NCBI GenBank assembly: GCA_002189035.1
Contig: NEEC01000020.1
Coordinates: 1,364,001 to 1,428,000 of the forward strand
Source: Utricularia gibba
Lineage: Eukaryota; Streptophyta; Magnoliopsida; Lamiales; Lentibulariaceae
Direction of reading: 5' to 3'
DNA length: 64,000 bases
Shown here: positions 906 through 21,800 of the stretch, in pieces
How positions within the stretch are numbered: position 1 is the first letter of the stretch
Layout: each line of letters opens with the position of its first letter
The notes under the pieces: model-generated
What the model was told of the DNA's origin: nothing
What the model saw: the letters and a program-made list of their open reading frames with translations, nothing else
Database searches by the model: none
Program-made: the position numbers and the translations under genes

Positions 906-1366
906 TAAAAGCAGTTTTGAGGATATGAGATTTGATGTAGGTGTAGTATCTTGGCGTATGAGGATATTTGCGTGAGCAGTTTTTGTATTGAACATAATGC
1001 AACAAAGCTTTTCTTCAATACATTGTAGCAACTAAAAATAGCCATTGTTGAAGGAGCCGTTGTACCCGTTACCGTCATTATGGCTACCTTAGTAGTCTTC
1101 CCTTCTACGGTTAGCATCCTTGAGTAGCGTCAAGATACTGTCGGTTGGGCTTGCTGGGAGAAGCCCATCCTTTCGATAATTTTCCTGTTGAACAGTCCAT
1201 TTGACAGCATTCGGGTCCATTATGATGAAGCCCATATCTGAGTTCAATCTTTTCTTCCGACGATTGGAAGCATCACAGCGACTTCGACTTTCCTCCGGGT
1301 TCTCACACCTCGTCTCTGCTTCATCTTCACACAATCTTGTCGTGGCTTGATCATTCTTAGCCTTCA
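906..1366 (-). repeat. Copia 3' LTR (left LTR)
   Basis: This 461-bp stretch matches 12144-12214 plus 13379-13795 at roughly 95% over most of its length, in the same orientation. On the minus strand it opens TGAAGGCTAAG directly after a purine tract, as a 3' LTR does. It lacks about 30 bp present in the right copy (around 13415-13455), and its outer end reads TA where the right copy has TG. No clean 5-bp target duplication is seen between the outer flanks (GCAGC at the left, ACTTC at the right). Confidence 0.8.
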
Positions 1367-1375
1367 TACCTCCTT
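1367..1375 (-). other. Polypurine tract of the Copia element
   Basis: Minus-strand AAGGAGGTA lies immediately before the LTR start TGAAGG, the expected place for the plus-strand primer of reverse transcription. It supports the left LTR boundary. Confidence 0.6.
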
Positions 1376-1399
1376 GAAGGTGAAACCGAGGAGAGGTTT

Positions 1400-3159
1400 C
1401 CGAATCCGACGGATTTCGTTGCAACCCTAGCAGTTCTCTGATTTGGGTGAACTGTTTTGGGAAAAGGGATTTCATCAATACGTCTGCAATTTGGAGCTCT
1501 GAGGGTAAGTATTCCAGTCCAATGGTTTCTTCCTTGATGTAATCTCTGAGGACGTGGTATTTGATTCTAATATGTTTCGTCTTTCCAAACATAACTGGAT
1601 TTTGGGCGATGCTTATGACTGATTTATTGTCAATCTTCAATATAAGTGGTCTTTGTATCTTGATTTCGAGGTCATCGCACAGTTTGAGTAGCCATTGTGC
1701 GTGGTTAGTTGCTGAGGCTCTTGATATGTACTCTGCCTCTACCGATGATTGAGCAACAAGGTCTTGTTTTTTTCTATTCTAGGAAAAAGCAGCTGAGCCA
1801 AGGTGAACAAGTAGCCAATGGTGGATTTCAAGTCTGATTCGTCTCCTACAAAATCGGAGTCAACAAAGCCTTGGAGAACAGGGTTAGTGAATTTCTTAAA
1901 ATACAAACCCAATGTCTTGGTAGGGTGTAAATATTTGAAAATTTTCTCAGCAATTTTCAGATGGAGAGGAAGAGGTTTATACATAAAACGAGATAGAAAT
2001 GTTACTGCAAAGGTGATATTGGGGCAGATGACCATGAGATATAGGAGTGCACCAACAATCTGCTGATATTCAAGAATGTTAATTGTTTTACTAGAAGCTG
2101 AAATAGTACGAGATGTCTTTGTGCGTTCATTTTTGGAGGCTTGATTAGACTTTAGCTTGAAATAAGGAGTAAGTGGCGTGACAGCATCCTTGGTGTCATG
2201 CATCATAAATTTACTGAGTAAGTCCTCTGTGTATTTTCTCTGACTCAAAAATATACACTTTTGATCTTGGTGAATTTCTAGGCCTAGAAAGTACTAGGCA
2301 GGTCCCAAATCCGAGAGATCAAATCTTTCTTTCAGCTTGTGCTTGTCTTCGGCTATCATATCTTTGCTTGCGCCGGTGAGAAGTATGTCGTCCACATAAA
2401 AGGTAATGATAGTTTGCCCCTTTTCTGAGTCACGAGTATAAAGAGTGGTATCATTTTGGCTCCGTACATATCCAATTTGCATAAGAAAACCATCAATGGT
2501 GACATACCATTCTTTAGGGGCTTGTTTTAGCCCATATAGCGCCTTTTGTAGTTTTAAAACCTTGTGGTCTCCATCTTGTAGGATAAAACCAGGCGGTGGA
2601 TGCACATAAATATCCTCTGTGAGGAGCCCGTTCAGAAACGCACTTTTCACATCTAGATGGTGAAGTGTCCATCCTTGACTAGCTGCATAAGCTATTACTA
2701 GTTTTATGGTGTCTAACTGGGCAACTGGAGCAAAGGTTTCCCAATAGTCTATTCCTTGCTTTTGTAGATAACCTTTGGTAACTAACCGAGATTTGAGCTT
2801 GTTCGCAAATCCATCTAGGTTTAGCTGAAGATCCATTTGAGGCCGATGGGCTTCACTCCTTGCAGTTTGTCAACGGCCACCCAAACCTGATGTTTTTGGA
2901 TGGAGGATAATTCACTCTCCATAGATGCTTTCCAAGCAGGATCTCGGAGGGCTTCATAAGGTGTTAGTGGCTCATATATAAGTGATGCCCTGTCATAGAC
3001 TCTAGTGATACAGTCATAACCTTTAAACGATTCTTCATCACAGAGATGTTCAGGATCGGAGCACTGAAAGTGAGGAACGTAAACATTTTTAGTAGAGTCA
3101 CTGCTAGTACCACTCTCTGAATTTCTGATATCTGGTATTTCAGGTACACGTTGGTGCAA
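1400..3159 (-). pseudogene. Copia reverse transcriptase and RNase H, broken
   Basis: Reading leftward on the minus strand: a linker (EPLTPYEALRDPAW, near 2940), the reverse transcriptase (2836-2294) with the catalytic YVDD box near 2390 and the ALYGLKQAP motif near 2530, then RNase H (2248-1400) with VDSDF, EAEYI and IDNKSV carrying the acidic residues. It is a Ty1/Copia pol by domain order. Damage: a frame change near 2825, a TAG stop at 2294-2292 between GPA and YFLGLE, and a frame change near 1750. It belongs to the same element as the gag at 10.9-12.0 kb and cannot make a full protein. Confidence 0.9.
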
Positions 3160-3194
3160 GAGTGGCTGTTCCCCCTATTCCTGTGGACTGGTCG

Positions 3195-4119
3195 TTAGTG
3201 AAGTCTCACATATATCAATGACGTCAAAGCTTGATCTATGATTGGTGAAGTTGTGATTCTCAGCAGTGGGGAACTATGATCAGGTGAGTGAGTAGTAGCA
3301 TCCAGATTTTGGTGAATATTAGTGGCATAGTCTTGTCCATTTTGAGATGTGTTGCTGTTGTCTGCAATATCCTGAGGAAGACATGTTTCTCTAGCAGTGT
3401 TGCTCTCAGAGTTGTCATGTCGAAATAGCTGAAAAATTTCCATGTTGTAGTCTGATTTTTGTTCTATAGAGGAAGATTTTTTCTTCCAATCAAATGTTCG
3501 AGATTCATCCACCACAACATCCGCACTTCTTTGATATTCAATTTTGTTACTGTCAGGAATATACACTCGGTAGATCTTTGTGGAATCTGCATAACCCACA
3601 AAGATGCCAATTTTGGCATGATTTTCAAGCTTGTTCCGTTTTTCTTTTGGGATGAATACATAGCACAATGGGCCAAATATTTTCATATTTTGGAGATCTT
3701 GTACCATCCCATGCCATAATTCATAAGGTGTTTTCCTTCTGAAATTCCTTTTGTCGATAGTCAATTGAGGAGGAAGATTGAGGTATGTACTACCTCTCCC
3801 CAAAATTGTAAGGGAAGGTTATGATCCAGCAGTAGGCATCGAGCCATATTCATGATGGTACGGTTCTTTCTCTCACATATTCCGTTCTGTTGAGGCGTAT
3901 AGGGTACTGTGAAGTGATGGGTAATATCATTCTCTGAGCAGAGTTTTTTTATTTCCATGGATTGATATTCACCACCATTGTGAGAGAGCAGGGTAATAAT
4001 CTTTGAATTGCTTTGAGTTTCTGCTAGAGCCTTGAAGATTTTGAAGTAATGAGTAGCCTCAGACTTGCGCTTAAGAAAGTAGACCCAGGTATACTTGGAG
4101 AAGTCATTCACAAATATGA
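3195..4119 (-). pseudogene. Copia integrase, C-terminal part
   Basis: Minus-strand frames give the integrase core: NDFSKYTWVYF, then the second catalytic Asp region reading LLSHNGGEY, where families have SDNGGEY, so the Asp is replaced by His. The third acidic residue is kept in QNGICERKNRTI. A frame change near 3790 joins it to the integrase-RT linker (ELWHG, VFIPKEKRNKLENHAK). The N-terminal part of the same domain lies at 4652-4833, cut off by the solo LTR. Dead by sequence. Confidence 0.88.
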
Positions 4120-10898: not shown

Positions 10899-12011
10899 TC
10901 ATGTGACTTTAGTTAGAGAAGCAAAGATGGATGCATTATTGGCCAGGTGGTTGCTGAAGGCGCAGTCCATAAGCCAAGTAAGTTTGTGTCTGTGGTCTTT
11001 AATTTTGGAGAGTATAGTCTGACTGCACAGTGAGTAGATAGAAACCTTGGAAATCTTATTGATATCATCAGGTGATACATCGGTTAGTTTTGTGATTGAG
11101 CTCTCAGGCATGATTGATCCAGTATGAGAACCATTTGTTATTTGGTTCCTATTGCTGGGACATACCCTTTCTAAATGTCCTTTTGCAGCATAGACTATGC
11201 AGAATGCTTCTAGATTCCAGTAGCAGCTTACAAGTAAATGATTCTTCTGGGCGCAATAAGGGCAAGGTGGATAGGGCCCTTTCTTTTCCTTCTTGGCTGG
11301 TCGGAAAGAAGGTGTGCTGTAGGATTGAAGAGCAGCATCGCACGGAAAAGAGTTTGAGGTGAGTGAAGTTTTAAAGGCTGCTTCTTGGATACTTTCTTCG
11401 CTACGACTTTTCCTGCGAGCTTCAACATTTTTCAAGTGGGATAGTAATTGTTGTAGTGATAAGGTCTCGAGAAATCCTATAGCATCTAAGGATTCGATGA
11501 CTGCATCAAATTCCGCAGGTGCACGATGGATAACACGCGCTTTCAATTTGTATTCTTCCCGGTCATCAATCAGTTCTCCCAGCCTTTTCAGTTTTTCAAG
11601 ATTTTTGAGAAGCAGTTCAATGCTGGTCACAACCTCACCTTCTCGGAGTTTGAAGTTATACACCTGATTCCAGAGTACCTGAATTTCATTTTTTCAAACT
11701 TCCTTTTTTTCTTCGTATGTCTCCTGTAGGGTCAGCTAGGCTTCCCCTGGTGTTTTTCGAGTGATACATCAATATGCATCACCAACAACAGCAGAGGCAA
11801 GAACTGCTGAAGCTTGAATCTCTTTTGTATGATATTCTGTTTCTGCAAGTCGTTTTTCTTGAGGAGTTCCTTCGAAGCAAGGATCAGTGGCAATGAAGTT
11901 CCAGAAGCCATGAAGCTGCAGATAAATTTCCATCTTTGGAGCCCAGATATCGTAGTCTTTGCCATCAAATATGGGAGGTGTGATGTTGGTAGCAGATATG
12001 CCAGAGGCCAT
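10899..12011 (-). pseudogene. Copia gag, with premature stops
   Basis: The chosen start is MASGISATN at 12011. N-terminal gag motif IFDGKDYDIWAPKME is followed by a UBN2-like region and the zinc knuckle CPYCAQKNHLLVSC near 11250. A second knuckle-like motif (CIVYAAKGHLERVC) has Tyr where Cys is expected. The frame is continuous with the downstream pol but carries three in-frame stops near 11767, 11735 and 11702, two of them at places where related gags have Trp. Gag-pol here would have been a single polyprotein. Confidence 0.85.
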
Positions 12012-14739: not shown

Positions 14740-14911
14740 ATAAGCGATGTGATGCGGCCGCAGTATATTCATCTGAGAAAATGAACCTTGATCTCGCTGA
14801 TAAATCAAATGCTCTAACTCACTATTGCTATGAGACAATCTAAACTCTCTAATAAAATTTACAAGAGCTGTCGATGATGTTCCTAAACCCGTAGCAGGAT
14901 GTGCAGATGGA
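14740..14911. repeat. SAUR 3'-flank repeat, copy 1
   Basis: The wording CAGTATATTCATCTGA..AAATGAACCTT..ATCTC and GATGAGACAATCTA recurs near 17160-17290, 18730-18870 and 20840-20960, each time beside SAUR cluster sequence. It marks the edge of the duplicated unit. Confidence 0.7.
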
Positions 14912-15175
14912 CTACAATTGGGATGTCACTTCCAGAAAGAAATCGTGACTGCAAGGAATGGTGATCCCACCCATTGGATGGCTGAATCCGTACCCTTCTT
15001 CCACCGGGTGCAATAACAACTCTTGGAACAAAGGCTCATTCAAGTAGGAGATCGGGATCACGAATCGCTTCTTTTCGTTCTCCCCAACGTACACTGCGAG
15101 ATGCCCTTTGGGGACTTCAGATGGGGATTTCCTTCCACCAGACAATGTTCTTCGAAGCACTTGACCGATCGCCAT
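14912..15175 (-). CDS. SAUR protein, pair 1 left
   Basis: An intronless 87-residue small auxin-up RNA protein. The core motif [21 protein letters not shown] (residues about 21-41) is followed by [13 protein letters not shown] and the C-terminal [12 protein letters not shown]. SAURs act mainly by binding and inhibiting PP2C.D phosphatases at the plasma membrane, which raises H+-ATPase activity and cell expansion. It faces 15691-15954 head to head across a 515-bp palindromic promoter. It differs from its partners at a few residues (GGRKSP, EEGYGF, SHDFF). The frame is intact and likely functional. Confidence 0.93.
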   Translation of the reverse strand: MAIGQVLRRTLSGGRKSPSEVPKGHLAVYVGENEKKRFVIPISYLNEPLFQELLLHPVEEGYGFSHPMGGITIPCSHDFFLEVTSQL

Positions 15176-15690
15176 AGAATCAGGGTTAGCAGTTCGCTAC
15201 AAGATCACAAGAAAGAATAATTGCTGAAGTTAGAGTGGTATGCAAATGAGCAGCATGTAGCTAATATATACGGGTCTTGGAGGAGGCAGTGGCCATGTGG
15301 AGTGAATTGCTGATGATGGGTAGTTGAAGGATGGGGAAAGAAGCACATGAAGGAGCACATGCCATTGTCCTTCTCCACGAATCATTTGTTTGGAATCCGA
15401 CAAAGAGGTTCCCCACATTACTCACCGCACTCCGCCAACTTGACAATGTAGGAAACTTCATTGTCGGATCCCAAACAAATGATTCGTTGAGCAAGATAAT
15501 CGCATGTGCTCTCTCATGTGCTTCTTTCCCCATCCTTCAACTACCCATCATCAGCAATTAACTCCACATGCCCAGTGCCTCCTCCACATCCGTATATAAT
15601 GGGCACATACTGCTCATTTGTACATCACCCTAACTTCAGCAATAACTCCTTTCTTGTGATCCTCTTGCAAACTGCATTTTCCCTGATTCT
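15176..15690. promoter_or_regulatory. Palindromic bidirectional SAUR promoter, pair 1
   Basis: The left half is a diverged reverse complement of the right half, centred near 15432, exactly midway between the two start codons. Mirror-image motifs: the ARF-type word TGTCGG at 15462-15467 and its complement CCGACA at 15397-15402; two CACATG words at 15344 and 15356 mirrored as CATGTG at 15503 and 15515 (bHLH/PIF-type E-boxes); TATATAA at 15593 and a TATATA element near 15263. Binding is inferred from known motif preferences. Confidence 0.75.
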
Positions 15691-15954
15691 ATGGCGATCG
15701 GTCAGGTGCTTCGAAGAACATTGTCTGGTGAAAGGAAATCCCCATCTGAAGTCCCAAAAGGGCATCTCGCAGTGTACGTTGGGGAGAACGAAAAGAAGCG
15801 ATTCGTGATCCCGATCTCCTACTTGAATGAGCCTTTGTTCCAAGAGTTGTTATTGCAGCCGTTGGAAGAAGAGTACGGATTCAGCCATCCAATGGGTGGC
15901 ATCACCATTCCTTGCAGTCACAATTTCTTTCTGGAAGTGACATCGCAATTGTAG
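15691..15954 (+). CDS. SAUR protein, pair 1 right
   Basis: Intronless, 87 residues, with the SAUR core ([38 protein letters not shown]). It starts [18 protein letters not shown]; a TATA-like TATATAA lies 92 bases before the ATG. It is almost the same protein as the other four in the cluster, which points to recent duplication or gene conversion. Expected role: auxin-induced growth through PP2C.D inhibition (family knowledge). Confidence 0.93.
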
Positions 15955-17340
15955 TCCATCTGCACATCCTGCTACAGGCTTAGGAACATCATCGATAGCC
16001 TTTGTAAATTTTTTTAGAGAGATAGATTGTCTCATCGCAATGGTGAGTTAGAGCACATGATTTATGAGTGAGATCCAGGTTCAATTTTCCAGATGAATAC
16101 ACTGCTGCCGCTTCATATTTCAACCCAGATATCAAATATTATTTTTTTAAAGATTTGCTCGACTGAGTTGAATCCGGTGGATCGGTTGTGATTGAACGCG
16201 CACCTTATGTTTATGACAATACATAATCTTATCACTCACAAGCAATCGAGGTTCTGAACTATAATCAATTCATCAGAGAGGTTTAGGAGAGGCCGTTGAA
16301 AAGACAGGCACGTGGGCATATGGGTGGTGGTGGGCAATGCATGGGAAACCTCTGGGGTGATTGGCGAAAACGGCCAAGTAGCCAGAGAAAGCAGCCGAGC
16401 ATCGGTCGGAGGATGGGGGCAGAAGGTAGACGATCGATTGGTAGGTAGAGCCATCACCAAACAAAAAGTTTTTATTTGAATAATAATCATTCTGAAAATA
16501 CAAAATTACAAAATCAACTCCTTCAATATTTTTTTAAATAATAAATTAAAATTTAATAAAAATAATCAATATATAAAATATTAAAAAAAAAAATACAACA
16601 AAGAACAATAAAAGATTTATATTTATATTAATTGATGTACAATATATTCAAAAAATGATCAAAAAATATTGTCTTACTTCTGTATTTTAATAAAAAAAAT
16701 ACCATAACTACGTATTTATAAACAATTATTTAGATAAGAACGAAATATTTGGAAAAAATGAATTCGTTATTAAAACAATATATAAAATAATTATTGGTAA
16801 AATATATTTTTAAAGACATGTTTAAAGAAACAAATTGTTTTTTAAATTTTTTACCCTGTTGAAATAAATTAATTCACAATTTATTAATATTTTCATTCTT
16901 TATTAAAAAAAATCTTGAATTTTCTTAATATAATTTAAATAAAAAATCCTTAATACAATTTTCAACCATAATATATCTATATGTATTGATTTTTTAGAAA
17001 GTCGTAAAATCTTCCAATGCTCATTACTACATGTATTGATATTTTAAGCCAAGGTTACTCATATTGAAATGTTCACATGTAATTAGACATGTTGTCCATT
17101 TCATATAATTCTTCTAAATGGAATCGAATATACTCATAATGAATTATTGTCTATTTGTGTCATCTGTAAAATTGAACCTTGATCTCACTCATAGATCATA
17201 TGCTTTAACTCATCATTGTGATGAGACAATCTATCTCTCTAATAAAATTTACAAGAGCTATTGATAATGTTCCTAAGCCCCTAGCAGCATGTGCACACGG
17301 ACATCAAGTAGACTTAATCTCTTTCCCCAACTTAGAGGTA
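15955..17340. repeat. Duplicated spacer downstream of SAUR pair 1
   Basis: Non-coding, AT-rich. It matches 19924-20990 in the same order and orientation: the GTAGACGATCGAT word near 16425 recurs near 20268, and the AATATTTGGAAAAAA region near 16745 recurs near 20477. Copy 1 has extra AT-rich sequence near 16505-16600. No gene is supported. Confidence 0.8.
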
Positions 17341-18729
17341 AGGTTACTTGGAAGGAAGTGAAGTTACTTTTTCTTCGCTCTCACACTAGTCCTTGAGTCT
17401 GATACAACTATTGGTTTAAGTAAAGTTTCAACTCTATTGTGGGAAGGAAATTCTGAAATGTTGTGATATTTTTGATGGAGGGTTGTCCTAGGAATGATGG
17501 GTTATAAAAATGTGCCTAGTTTGTGGTTTTCATGTATTTTGTGACATCGTTACGTCTCCTAACCATTGCATCTCCCATCTCTTAAAAAAAGAGAGAATTT
17601 TGGGATTTTATCTTTCACTGTTTTTTAATTCTAAAAATACTTTATGAAATATACTTAGAGGATGTTCTAATCATCTTTTCATTTTTCATTTTTCTTCTCC
17701 TTAGAATGAGAAGTAATAGAGATTTCATCATTTTAAGAAGTAAAATGCATGTATAACATATTCTATTTAAGAAGGAGAATGCAAATTTAATAAAAATATA
17801 AATTGTATTTTTGTTCTAATAATAAAATGTATTTTTTAAATATCTACGATGACACATATGGGTGTATGAAAAACATATAATATTTTGGAAATACATTTCT
17901 AGGCGTCCATATGAAATATTATGTATGTCTGGAAAATATATCATTTTTTAAAACAAAATTTTCTAGTTACCAACAAGAGATTTTGTGAGTGACTAGAGAA
18001 TATATAAGATTTATAAAAATACATTTTCGGTCATCCACATAACCAGTATAGGTGCCCGACAAAAATGTTTAAAAAAATTGTGTATTTATTGTGATATGGC
18101 TTTGTTGTTTTTTAATGAATTAAGAAAACTGTGGGCAGAAAACCAAATTCATCTATTATTTTTTAGCAACTCACAAAAAACATACAGAACATCATCTTAC
18201 ACTGTCTTCTCTAGTGAAATTTCACTCACCCTTTTGGATCTTCTCAAGGTATTTTTCATATTCTTTTCTCTTGTTCAAAGAGGTTACCGAGTAACTCTAA
18301 TCTATCTATTAGATTAGAGTTATTTAATGACAAATACATATTTGAGCCTATGATTTAAATCACAAATATTTTATTATTTTTGGATCATTAAATCAAAAAT
18401 ACATATGATTTAATGATTTATTTGAGCCTAAATAATTATTACAACAAACATGACGAATAATGAGTTGCAAACTACTCAATTCAGTCCATAGCAGAGTTCA
18501 TTGGAAATGATTAAAATGATGTATATCATATAATCTTATTTACGTATGATATAAATTGAGCATTTTTTGTTTTGTACATAAAGACAAATATAGTTTAATT
18601 AATAATCTACACCAATCCAATATATACAGTGTGCGTTCACCCACAATCGATCCATGGGATTCAACTCAGTCGAGCAAATATTTAAAAAAAAAAGAAACAA
18701 TCTTTGCAATCTGGGTTTCAATCTGAAGC
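17341..18729. other. AT-rich spacer without recognised gene
   Basis: Unique within the window. I see scattered poly-A/T runs and no supported gene. A 79-codon frame at 18078-18317 has no recognisable motif. Confidence 0.5.
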
Positions 18730-18885
18730 GGAAGCAGTATATTCATCTAAAAAAATGAACCTTCATCTCAGTCATAAATGATATCCTCTAGCTCACCATT
18801 GTGATGAGACAATGTATCTCTCTAATAAAATTTACAAGATGCTATCAATAATCTTCCTAAGCCCGTAGCAGCATCTGCAGATGGA

Positions 18886-19149
18886 CTACAATTGGGATGT
18901 CACTTCCAGAAAGAAATTGTGACTGCAAGGAATGGTGATGCCACCCATTGCATGGCTGAATCCGTACTCTTCTTCCACCGGGTGCAACAACAACTCTTGG
19001 AACAAAGGCTCATTCAAGTACGAGATCGGGATCACGAATCGCCTCTTTTCGTTCTCCCCGACGTACACTGCGAGGTGTCCTTTGGGGACTTCAGATGGGG
19101 ATTTCCTTTCACCAGACAATGTTCTTCGAAGTACTTGACCGATCGCCAT
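18886..19149 (-). CDS. SAUR protein, pair 2 left
   Basis: Intronless, 87 residues, with the SAUR core [18 protein letters not shown] and C-terminal [12 protein letters not shown]. It differs from the pair 1 right protein at a handful of positions (KRRF for KKRF, HAMGG for HPMGG). It faces 19660-19923 across a second palindromic promoter. Same expected function as the other SAURs: auxin-linked cell expansion. Confidence 0.93.
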
Positions 19150-19659
19150 AGAATCAGGGAAAATGCAGTTTGCAAGAGGATCACAAGAAAGGAGTTATCG
19201 CTGGTGATGTGCAAATGGGCAGTATGTGGCAAATATATACGGGTGTTGGAGGAGGCAGTGGGCATGTGGAGTGAATTGCTGATGATGGGTGGTTGAAGGA
19301 TGGGGAAAGAAGCACATGAAGGAGCACATGCCATTGCCCTTCTCCACGAATCATTTGTTTGGAATCCGACAAAGAGGTTCCCTACATTGCTCTGCGCACT
19401 CCGCCAACTTGACAATGTAGGAAACCTCATCGTCGGATCCCAAGCAAATGATTCGCGGAGAAGGACAATCGCATGTGCTCTCTCATGTGCTTCTTTCCCC
19501 ACCCTTCAACTACCCATCATCAGCAATTCACTCCACATGGCCACTGCCTCCTCCAACATCCGTATATAATGGGCACATACTACTCATTTGCACATCACCC
19601 TAACTTCAGCAATAACTCTTTCTTGTGATCTTCTTGCAAACTGCATTTCCCCTGATTCT
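19150..19659. promoter_or_regulatory. Palindromic bidirectional SAUR promoter, pair 2
   Basis: Same design as pair 1, centred near 19404. CCGACA is kept at 19366-19371, but the mirror site reads CGTCGG at 19431-19436, having lost the first T of TGTCGG. TATATAA lies at 19563, 97 bases before the right-hand ATG. CACATG-type words are conserved in both arms. Confidence 0.72.
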
Positions 19660-19923
19660 ATGGCGATCGGTCATGTGCTTCGAAGAACATTGTCTGGTGA
19701 ACGGAAATCCCCATCTGAAGTCCCCAAAGGGCATCTCGCAGTGTACGTTGGGGAGAACGAAAAGAGGCGATTCGTGATCCCGATCTCCTACTTGAATGAG
19801 CCTTTGTTCCAGGAGTTGTTATTGCAGCCTTTGGAAGAAGAGTACGGATTCAGGCATCCAATGGGTGGGATCACCATTCCTTGCAGTCACCATTTCTTTC
19901 TGGAAGTGACATCCCAATTGTAG
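19660..19923 (+). CDS. SAUR protein, pair 2 right
   Basis: Intronless, 87 residues from [16 protein letters not shown]. An in-frame upstream Met at 19588 exists, but the start at 19660 matches all other copies and follows the TATA element at a similar distance. Core SAUR motifs are intact; it has HHFFLEV where others have HNFF. Same expected function as its neighbours. Confidence 0.93.
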
Positions 19924-20984
19924 TCCATCTGCACATCCTGCTGCGGGTTTAGGAAGATTATCGATAGCTCTTGTAAATTTCATTAGAGAATATGATTTAT
20001 AGTGAGATGAAGGTTCAATTTTCCAGATGAATATACTGCTAATTCTTCATATCCCTTATTTATAAAAAGCATATTACATATTATCACTCAGTCACAAACA
20101 ATCGAGGTTCTGAACTATAATCAATTCATCAGAGAGGAGGTTTGGGAGAGGCGGTTGAAAAGATAGGCACGTGGGCAGTGTACGGTAAACCCGTCGGGTA
20201 ATGGCGAAAGCGGCCAAGTAGCCAGAGCAAGCAGCCGAGCATCGGTCAGACGATGGGGGCAGAAGGTAGACGATCGATAGGTAGGTAGAACCATCACCAA
20301 ACAAATATTTTTTATTTGAAGAATAATCATTCTAAAAATAATAAAAGATTTATATTTATATTAATTGATGCACAATATATTCAAAAAATGATCAAAAAAT
20401 ATTGTCTTACTTCTGTATTTTAATAAAAAAAATAGCATAACTATGTATTTATAAACAATTATTTAGACAAGAACGAAATATTTGGAAAAAAATGAATTCG
20501 TTGGAAAACAATATATAAAATAATTATTGGTAAAATATATTTTCAAAGACATATTTAAAGAAAAAAATTATTTTTAAAATTTTTTTACCCTGTTGAAATA
20601 AATTAATTTCTTTATATAATTTAAATAAAAAAATCCTGAATACAAATTTCTATCATAATATAACTATATGTATTGATTTTTTAGAAACTCGTATAATCAT
20701 CCATGCTCATTACTACGTGTACTGACATTTTGAGCCAAGGTTACTCACATTGAAATGTTTACATGTAACTAGACATGTCCATTTCATATAATTCTTGTAA
20801 ATGGAATCGAATATAATCATAATAGATTATTGTCTCGTTGTGTCATATGGAAAACTGAACCTTGATCTCACTCATAAATTGTATGCTTTAACTCATCATT
20901 GTGATGAGATAATCTATCTCTCTAATAAAATATACAAAGGCTATCGATGATCTCCCTAAGCCTGTAGCAGGATGTGCAGATGGA
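19924..20984. repeat. Duplicated spacer downstream of SAUR pair 2
   Basis: Second copy of 15955-17340, shortened by internal deletions. It ends in the same GATGAGA.AATCTATCTCTCTAATAAAAT edge repeat and leads directly into the fifth SAUR. Confidence 0.8.
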
Positions 20985-21248
20985 CTACAATTGGGATGTC
21001 ACTTCCAGAAAGAAATTGTGGCTGCAAGGAATGGTGATGCCACCCATTGAATGGCTGAATCCGTACTCTTCTTCCAACGGGTGCAATAACAACTCTTGGA
21101 ACAAAGGCTCATTCAAGTAGGAGATCGGGATCACGAATCGCCTCTTTTCGTTCTCTCCAACGTACACTGCAAGATGCCCTTTGGGGACTTCAGATGAGGA
21201 TTTCCTTTCACCAGACAATGTTCTTCGAAGCACCTGACCGATCGCCAT
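20985..21248 (-). CDS. SAUR protein, orphan half of a third pair
   Basis: Intronless, 87 residues with intact SAUR core ([18 protein letters not shown]). It has SSEVPK where most copies have SPSEVPK-type spacing, and SHSMGG. The promoter arm upstream is conserved to about 21505, including CCGACA at 21453-21458, but the mirror arm and partner gene are gone. Function as for the other SAURs, if expressed from half a promoter. Confidence 0.9.
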   Translation of the reverse strand: MAIGQVLRRTLSGERKSSSEVPKGHLAVYVGENEKRRFVIPISYLNEPLFQELLLHPLEEEYGFSHSMGGITIPCSHNFFLEVTSQL

Positions 21249-21504: not shown

Positions 21505-21800
21505 GCTGCTTCCTTTGCTATCAGAAAACATAATCCTACTTTTGATCTTCCTATGCCGATCTCATGCGGGTCCGATAAAACTGTCCTGAAACCAAAGCAC
21601 AAATGCTTAATTTGTATCTATGTTTATAGCGATCTGCCAAAGATGAATGAGCATGTGGTACTATATAAGGACGTTGGAGGAGGCATTGGGCACAAGGAGT
21701 TCATTGGTGAAGATGGGTGCTGGAAGCATGAGTACACAAGCAAATGAACGATTGTCTTTCCCAACAACTCATTTGCGTTGGAATCCAGCATAGAATCTTA
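21505..21800 (+). other. Diverged SAUR promoter remnant
   Basis: After the break at about 21505, bases 21650-21790 again resemble the SAUR promoter (ACTATATAAGGACGTTGGAGG, CATTTGCGTTGGAATCC), with lower identity. It looks like an older, decayed promoter copy whose gene is lost. A 110-codon frame crosses it but has no SAUR similarity. Confidence 0.5.

Follow-up and report, generated by a model that had tools for sequence, protein, structure and literature searches.

The 64,000-nucleotide stretch of Utricularia gibba DNA analysed here (the window) carries a pair of divergent SAUR genes that, with the sequence between them, forms an imperfect 1.4-kb palindrome. This palindrome very probably originated by head-to-head fusion of two SAUR unit copies that had already diverged within a nine-gene array. 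The pair is best explained by the usual dynamics of a gene family, here with a history that is well resolved, and not by a specially designed mirror-image promoter. On the fusion reading it would offer a clear example of a conspicuous mirror-image promoter whose origin, followed through the individual copies, lies in the joining of ordinary promoters.

The features of the pair (pair 5) are as follows, with solo denoting array copies that are unpaired:

14747-16118: whole imperfect palindrome (88.6% identity over 1381 columns)
14912-15175, minus strand: SAUR gene L5, left arm of pair 5 (87 aa, intact ORF; PF02519 E 4.8e-22)
15176-15690: intergenic region, 515 bp, made up of two full solo-type SAUR promoters in head-to-head arrangement
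15265-15270, minus strand: TATATA, left TATA-like box
15344-15361, minus strand: doubled CACATG, left half (at 15344 and 15356)
15397-15402, minus strand: TGTCGG (ARF-type), left half
15420-15444: non-palindromic centre, 25 nt, homologous to the upstream sequence of solo copies
15444-15446: probable fusion junction, CAA (left-type solo matches end at 15446, right-type begin at 15444)
15462-15467, plus strand: TGTCGG (ARF-type), right half
15503-15520, plus strand: doubled CATGTG, right half (at 15503 and 15515)
15593-15598, plus strand: TATATA, right TATA-like box
15691-15954, plus strand: SAUR gene R5, right arm of pair 5 (87 aa, intact ORF; PF02519 E 2.8e-23)

Both proteins match the Pfam Auxin_inducible profile PF02519, the two scores being 82.4 and 78.5 bits (curated cut-off, 26.3 bits), in agreement with the first-pass annotation of both genes as SAURs (E values of 5e-22 and 3e-23 when rounded). 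They also have the short, intronless and clustered form expected of this family, as single 87-aa ORFs with nine copies in ~31 kb. The genes are divergent, with 515 bp from ATG to ATG and a midpoint between the ATGs at 15433. When 14747-16118 is compared with its own reverse complement, the centre of the match falls at ~15432; global alignment of one arm against the other gives a score of 521 (shuffled sequences: -79 +/- 9). The earlier proposal that the gene pair and its intergenic region constitute one inverted repeat centred near 15432 is thereby confirmed, as is the arm identity that it expected to exceed background. Identity measured in 50-bp steps rises from 70% near the centre to 94–100% within the genes, and ~11% of positions differ between the arms. 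The palindrome is therefore real; it is neither unique (a second pair is present at 18886-19923) nor composed of near-identical arms, these being clearly diverged.

Both TGTCGG sites (15397 and 15462) and the doubled CACATG/CATGTG boxes are located where the first-pass annotation had placed them, and a third box is mirrored at 15294 and 15565. TGTCGG is the highest-affinity ARF element (PMC10690724), and the PIF5-like motif CAnnnnCATGTG, an extended form of CATGTG, has been reported for 28/50 auxin-induced SAURs (PMC5735953). Within the array, TGTCGG is found in every unit except R6 and CAnnnnCATGTG in every unit except R5 (7/8 distinct array promoters), the R5 promoter being without the CA of the extended motif. 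Taken as a whole, the array thus has the AuxRE plus CAnnnnCATGTG promoter of class I auxin-induced SAURs, and the assignment of auxin-type elements to this region (a high-affinity ARF-type hexamer and a PIF-type box) holds. The simplest reading is that the region comprises two ordinary class I SAUR promoters placed back to back. The equal distances of the boxes from the centre are not independent evidence of function, because they are a consequence of the inverted repeat. Symmetric TGTCGG placement, which the repeat itself produces and which is broken by loss of the site in R6, was accordingly discarded as a sign of selection. More generally, binding-site symmetry inside an inverted repeat should not be read as design.

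A search of the assembly places nine copies of the gene, with 94–100% protein identity to R5, at positions 1354302-1385248 of contig C317; the best match outside the array has 80% protein identity and is on another contig. The array reads u1m, u2m, u3m (minus strand), u4p (plus strand), L5/R5, L6/R6 and u7m (minus strand), comprising five solo copies and two compact head-to-head pairs. The first four copies lie to the left of the window, with u4p at C317:1363208. No compact head-to-head pair was present at four other SAUR loci examined, and none was apparent among the positions listed genome-wide. The remaining array features in the window are:

17160-17302, minus strand: relic of a solo SAUR copy, consisting only of sequence 3' of the gene; matches the u7 3' flank in a duplicated block
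18886-19149, minus strand: SAUR gene L6, left arm of pair 6; unit identical to solo u4p
19413-19415: probable fusion junction of pair 6, same as in pair 5
19431-19436, plus strand: CGTCGG in R6 (right TGTCGG of pair 6 lost)
19660-19923, plus strand: SAUR gene R6, right arm of pair 6
20985-21248, minus strand: solo SAUR gene u7 (u7m)

The geometry of pair 6 is like that of pair 5 (510 versus 515 bp between genes), and 16601-17302, which contains a spacer and the relic, matches 20334-20985; these matches indicate that a pair and the solo gene following it were duplicated as a block. With a mean dS of ~0.13, the array as a whole is fairly young. Degenerate second SAUR promoter copies (70–79%) occur upstream of u7m (window 21650-21794) and of u4p (C317:1362436-1362542), and are possibly relics of older tandem copies.

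The solo copies show how the palindrome is put together. Every one has the same ~250-bp promoter with TGTCGG, CATGTG and TATA-like boxes, and their upstream homology continues past the position of the palindrome centre (to -1417 for u1/u2, to -459 for u2/u4 and to approximately -300 for the others). The paralogue C1b, on contig C1, can likewise be aligned through the centre (loop) sequence, the TGTC core and the doubled CATGTG. The centre is thus ordinary upstream sequence belonging to the left copy. Since the same boxes and flank occur in the solo copies, and the core boxes in C1b, the solo promoter is taken as ancestral and the mirror image as two joined promoters; within the one genome compared, this polarity depends on those solo copies and a single paralogue. 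The converse, that solo copies are broken palindromes, is ruled out by the flank that they share upstream of the centre position.

In solo copies, left-type homology extends to 15446 (to 15447 for u7m) and right-type homology sets in at 15444, giving an overlap of 3 bases. Since pairs 5 and 6 have one junction in common, the fusion was most likely formed once and then copied. The copies u3m (minus strand) and u4p (plus strand) are divergent and separated by ~4 kb, a layout suggesting that the compact form arose by deletion between two copies placed in this way. As evidence for mechanism the overlap is weak, favouring no one repair route. It is unlikely that the compact two-gene promoter, after forming in one step by microhomology deletion of the spacer, was amplified as a unit for raised or coordinated SAUR expression; were this so, doubled ARF and PIF-type sites would lie within reach of both genes.

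Trees of the promoter columns group R5, R6 and u3m (support 97/96) and L5 with u2m (96/93), and the approximately unbiased (AU) test on these columns rejects an L5+R5 grouping (p 0.011). Sites grouping L5+L6 versus R5+R6 number 24, or 13 when the centre (loop) columns, which are non-homologous between arms, are left out; 4 sites group pair 5 versus pair 6, and 7 support cross groupings. This left/right count is partly confounded by conversion, as L6 appears to have been overwritten by, or copied to, u4p. We read the promoter trees as pointing to fusion of two diverged copies, with the remaining history probably blurred by conversion. The alternative of a fold-back inverted duplication, in which a single event would have produced an inverted second copy of one SAUR unit, with divergence of the arms afterwards, is distinctly unlikely. 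A centre of just 25 nt and an overlap of 3 bases are likewise in keeping with a fold-back or template-switch event, and trees of the full unit (promoter, gene and 3' part), which resolve no grouping, are compatible with it, the AU test retaining both L5+R5 (p 0.27) and the four-arm clade (p 0.17). For the promoter, however, the four-arm clade expected from a fold-back origin is rejected (p 0.002), the two halves fall in separate lineages (R beside u3m, L5 beside u2m), and L5-R5 promoter divergence is the highest of 36 comparisons.

Recent origin, gene conversion between arms and selection for equal expression had been offered as reasons for survival of the palindrome; the first agrees with the low mean dS of the array and the second finds no support. 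Arms kept alike by conversion should resemble each other more than they resemble other copies, but within-pair identities (88.3% and 89.4%) are among the lowest of 36 comparisons, and a shared-run permutation test gave no signal of conversion within pairs (p 0.09 and 0.89; 28 comparisons, uncorrected). Arm-to-arm conversion was rejected on these run tests and on the site patterns. Between other copies the picture differs: R6 and u3m share a run of 52 consecutive variable sites (0/2000 permutations; 28 comparisons, uncorrected), and L6 and u4p are without mismatch for ~950 bp. The latter match joins window 18467-19415, which includes L6, to C317:1362942-1363891, inverted and ~20 kb away, and stops at the fusion junction; it could stem from a recent conversion or copying event or from the assembly. 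Other copies thus undergo ectopic exchange or have been copied recently, while neither was detected between the arms of a pair. High identity of the gene arms was also considered as a sign of conversion. Pairwise means, taken over non-independent pairs, are ~0.16 for dN/dS, 0.65 for promoter K/dS and 1.26 for 3' K/dS; the coding identity needs no special explanation because a dN/dS of 0.16 denotes purifying selection and accounts for it.

The same values suggest that the promoter is moderately constrained. A promoter evolving more slowly than synonymous sites, with boxes kept in both halves of pair 5, could be taken as a selected bidirectional auxin promoter whose symmetry is kept for equal expression, possibly with arm-to-arm conversion. 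This reading is very unlikely, since the same boxes are present in solo copies, pair 6 is missing one TGTCGG, conservation of the TGTCGG columns barely exceeds that of the promoter as a whole (5/6 invariant versus 68% overall) and within-pair conversion was not detected. The two TGTCGG sites of pair 5 face outward at a distance of 59 bp, unlike the inverted repeats 7–8 bp apart (IR7/8) preferred by ARF dimers (PMC10690724). The idea of selection for mirror symmetry thus finds no support.

An artefact of assembly, for example from a fold-back read, is extremely improbable: missed adapters in long-read libraries can create palindromes, and the exact 950-bp L6/u4p identity is the more suspect feature, but the pair 5 arms are too different for this, and the junction is common to two pairs with independent differences.

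Under the head-to-head fusion reading, each copy would have brought its own complete promoter, and the sequence between two divergent copies was probably deleted, leaving the observed junction. The fused pair and a neighbouring solo gene would later have been copied to give pairs 5 and 6, as their common junction and the duplicated spacer indicate. Purifying selection would have kept the coding parts alike, with occasional ectopic conversion among other copies. Each half has the full make-up of a solo-type promoter, which argues that sharing of elements is unnecessary for both genes; each gene is most likely driven by its own half, with the ARF and PIF-type sites of its partner close enough that they may contribute. 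The array, which has both solo and paired copies, constitutes a natural experiment on whether joining two auxin promoters alters expression.

McClure and Guilfoyle reportedly described, in 1989, a cluster of soybean SAURs in which the orientation of the genes alternates; the present array resembles it in gene arrangement, with small clustered SAUR genes, some of them divergent. Our literature search yielded no directly relevant report on SAURs in bladderworts, on SAUR pairs forming palindromes or on the soybean cluster. Like Arabidopsis class I SAURs, the genes described here encode PF02519 proteins and have promoters with an AuxRE and CAnnnnCATGTG; unlike them, two copy pairs form palindromes by having their promoters joined, and R5 has the incomplete motif noted above. 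At4g35985/At4g35987 is a head-to-head plant gene pair with a bidirectional promoter (PMC3834115). Pair 5 is similar in having two divergent genes and a short common intergenic region, which at 515 bp falls within the <1 kb used to define bidirectional promoters, but the region consists of two copies of one unidirectional promoter, for which shared activity is a candidate property.

Three further observations were made by eye. A SAUR-like promoter with doubled CACATG adjoins an apparent broken SAUR gene at L003:5590-5740 (contig C1). In the window, several minus-strand ORFs at 1089-3707 resemble parts of a Ty1/copia retrotransposon, including reverse transcriptase-like residues, and an 80-aa minus-strand ORF at 11769-12011 resembles the start of a copia-type gag.
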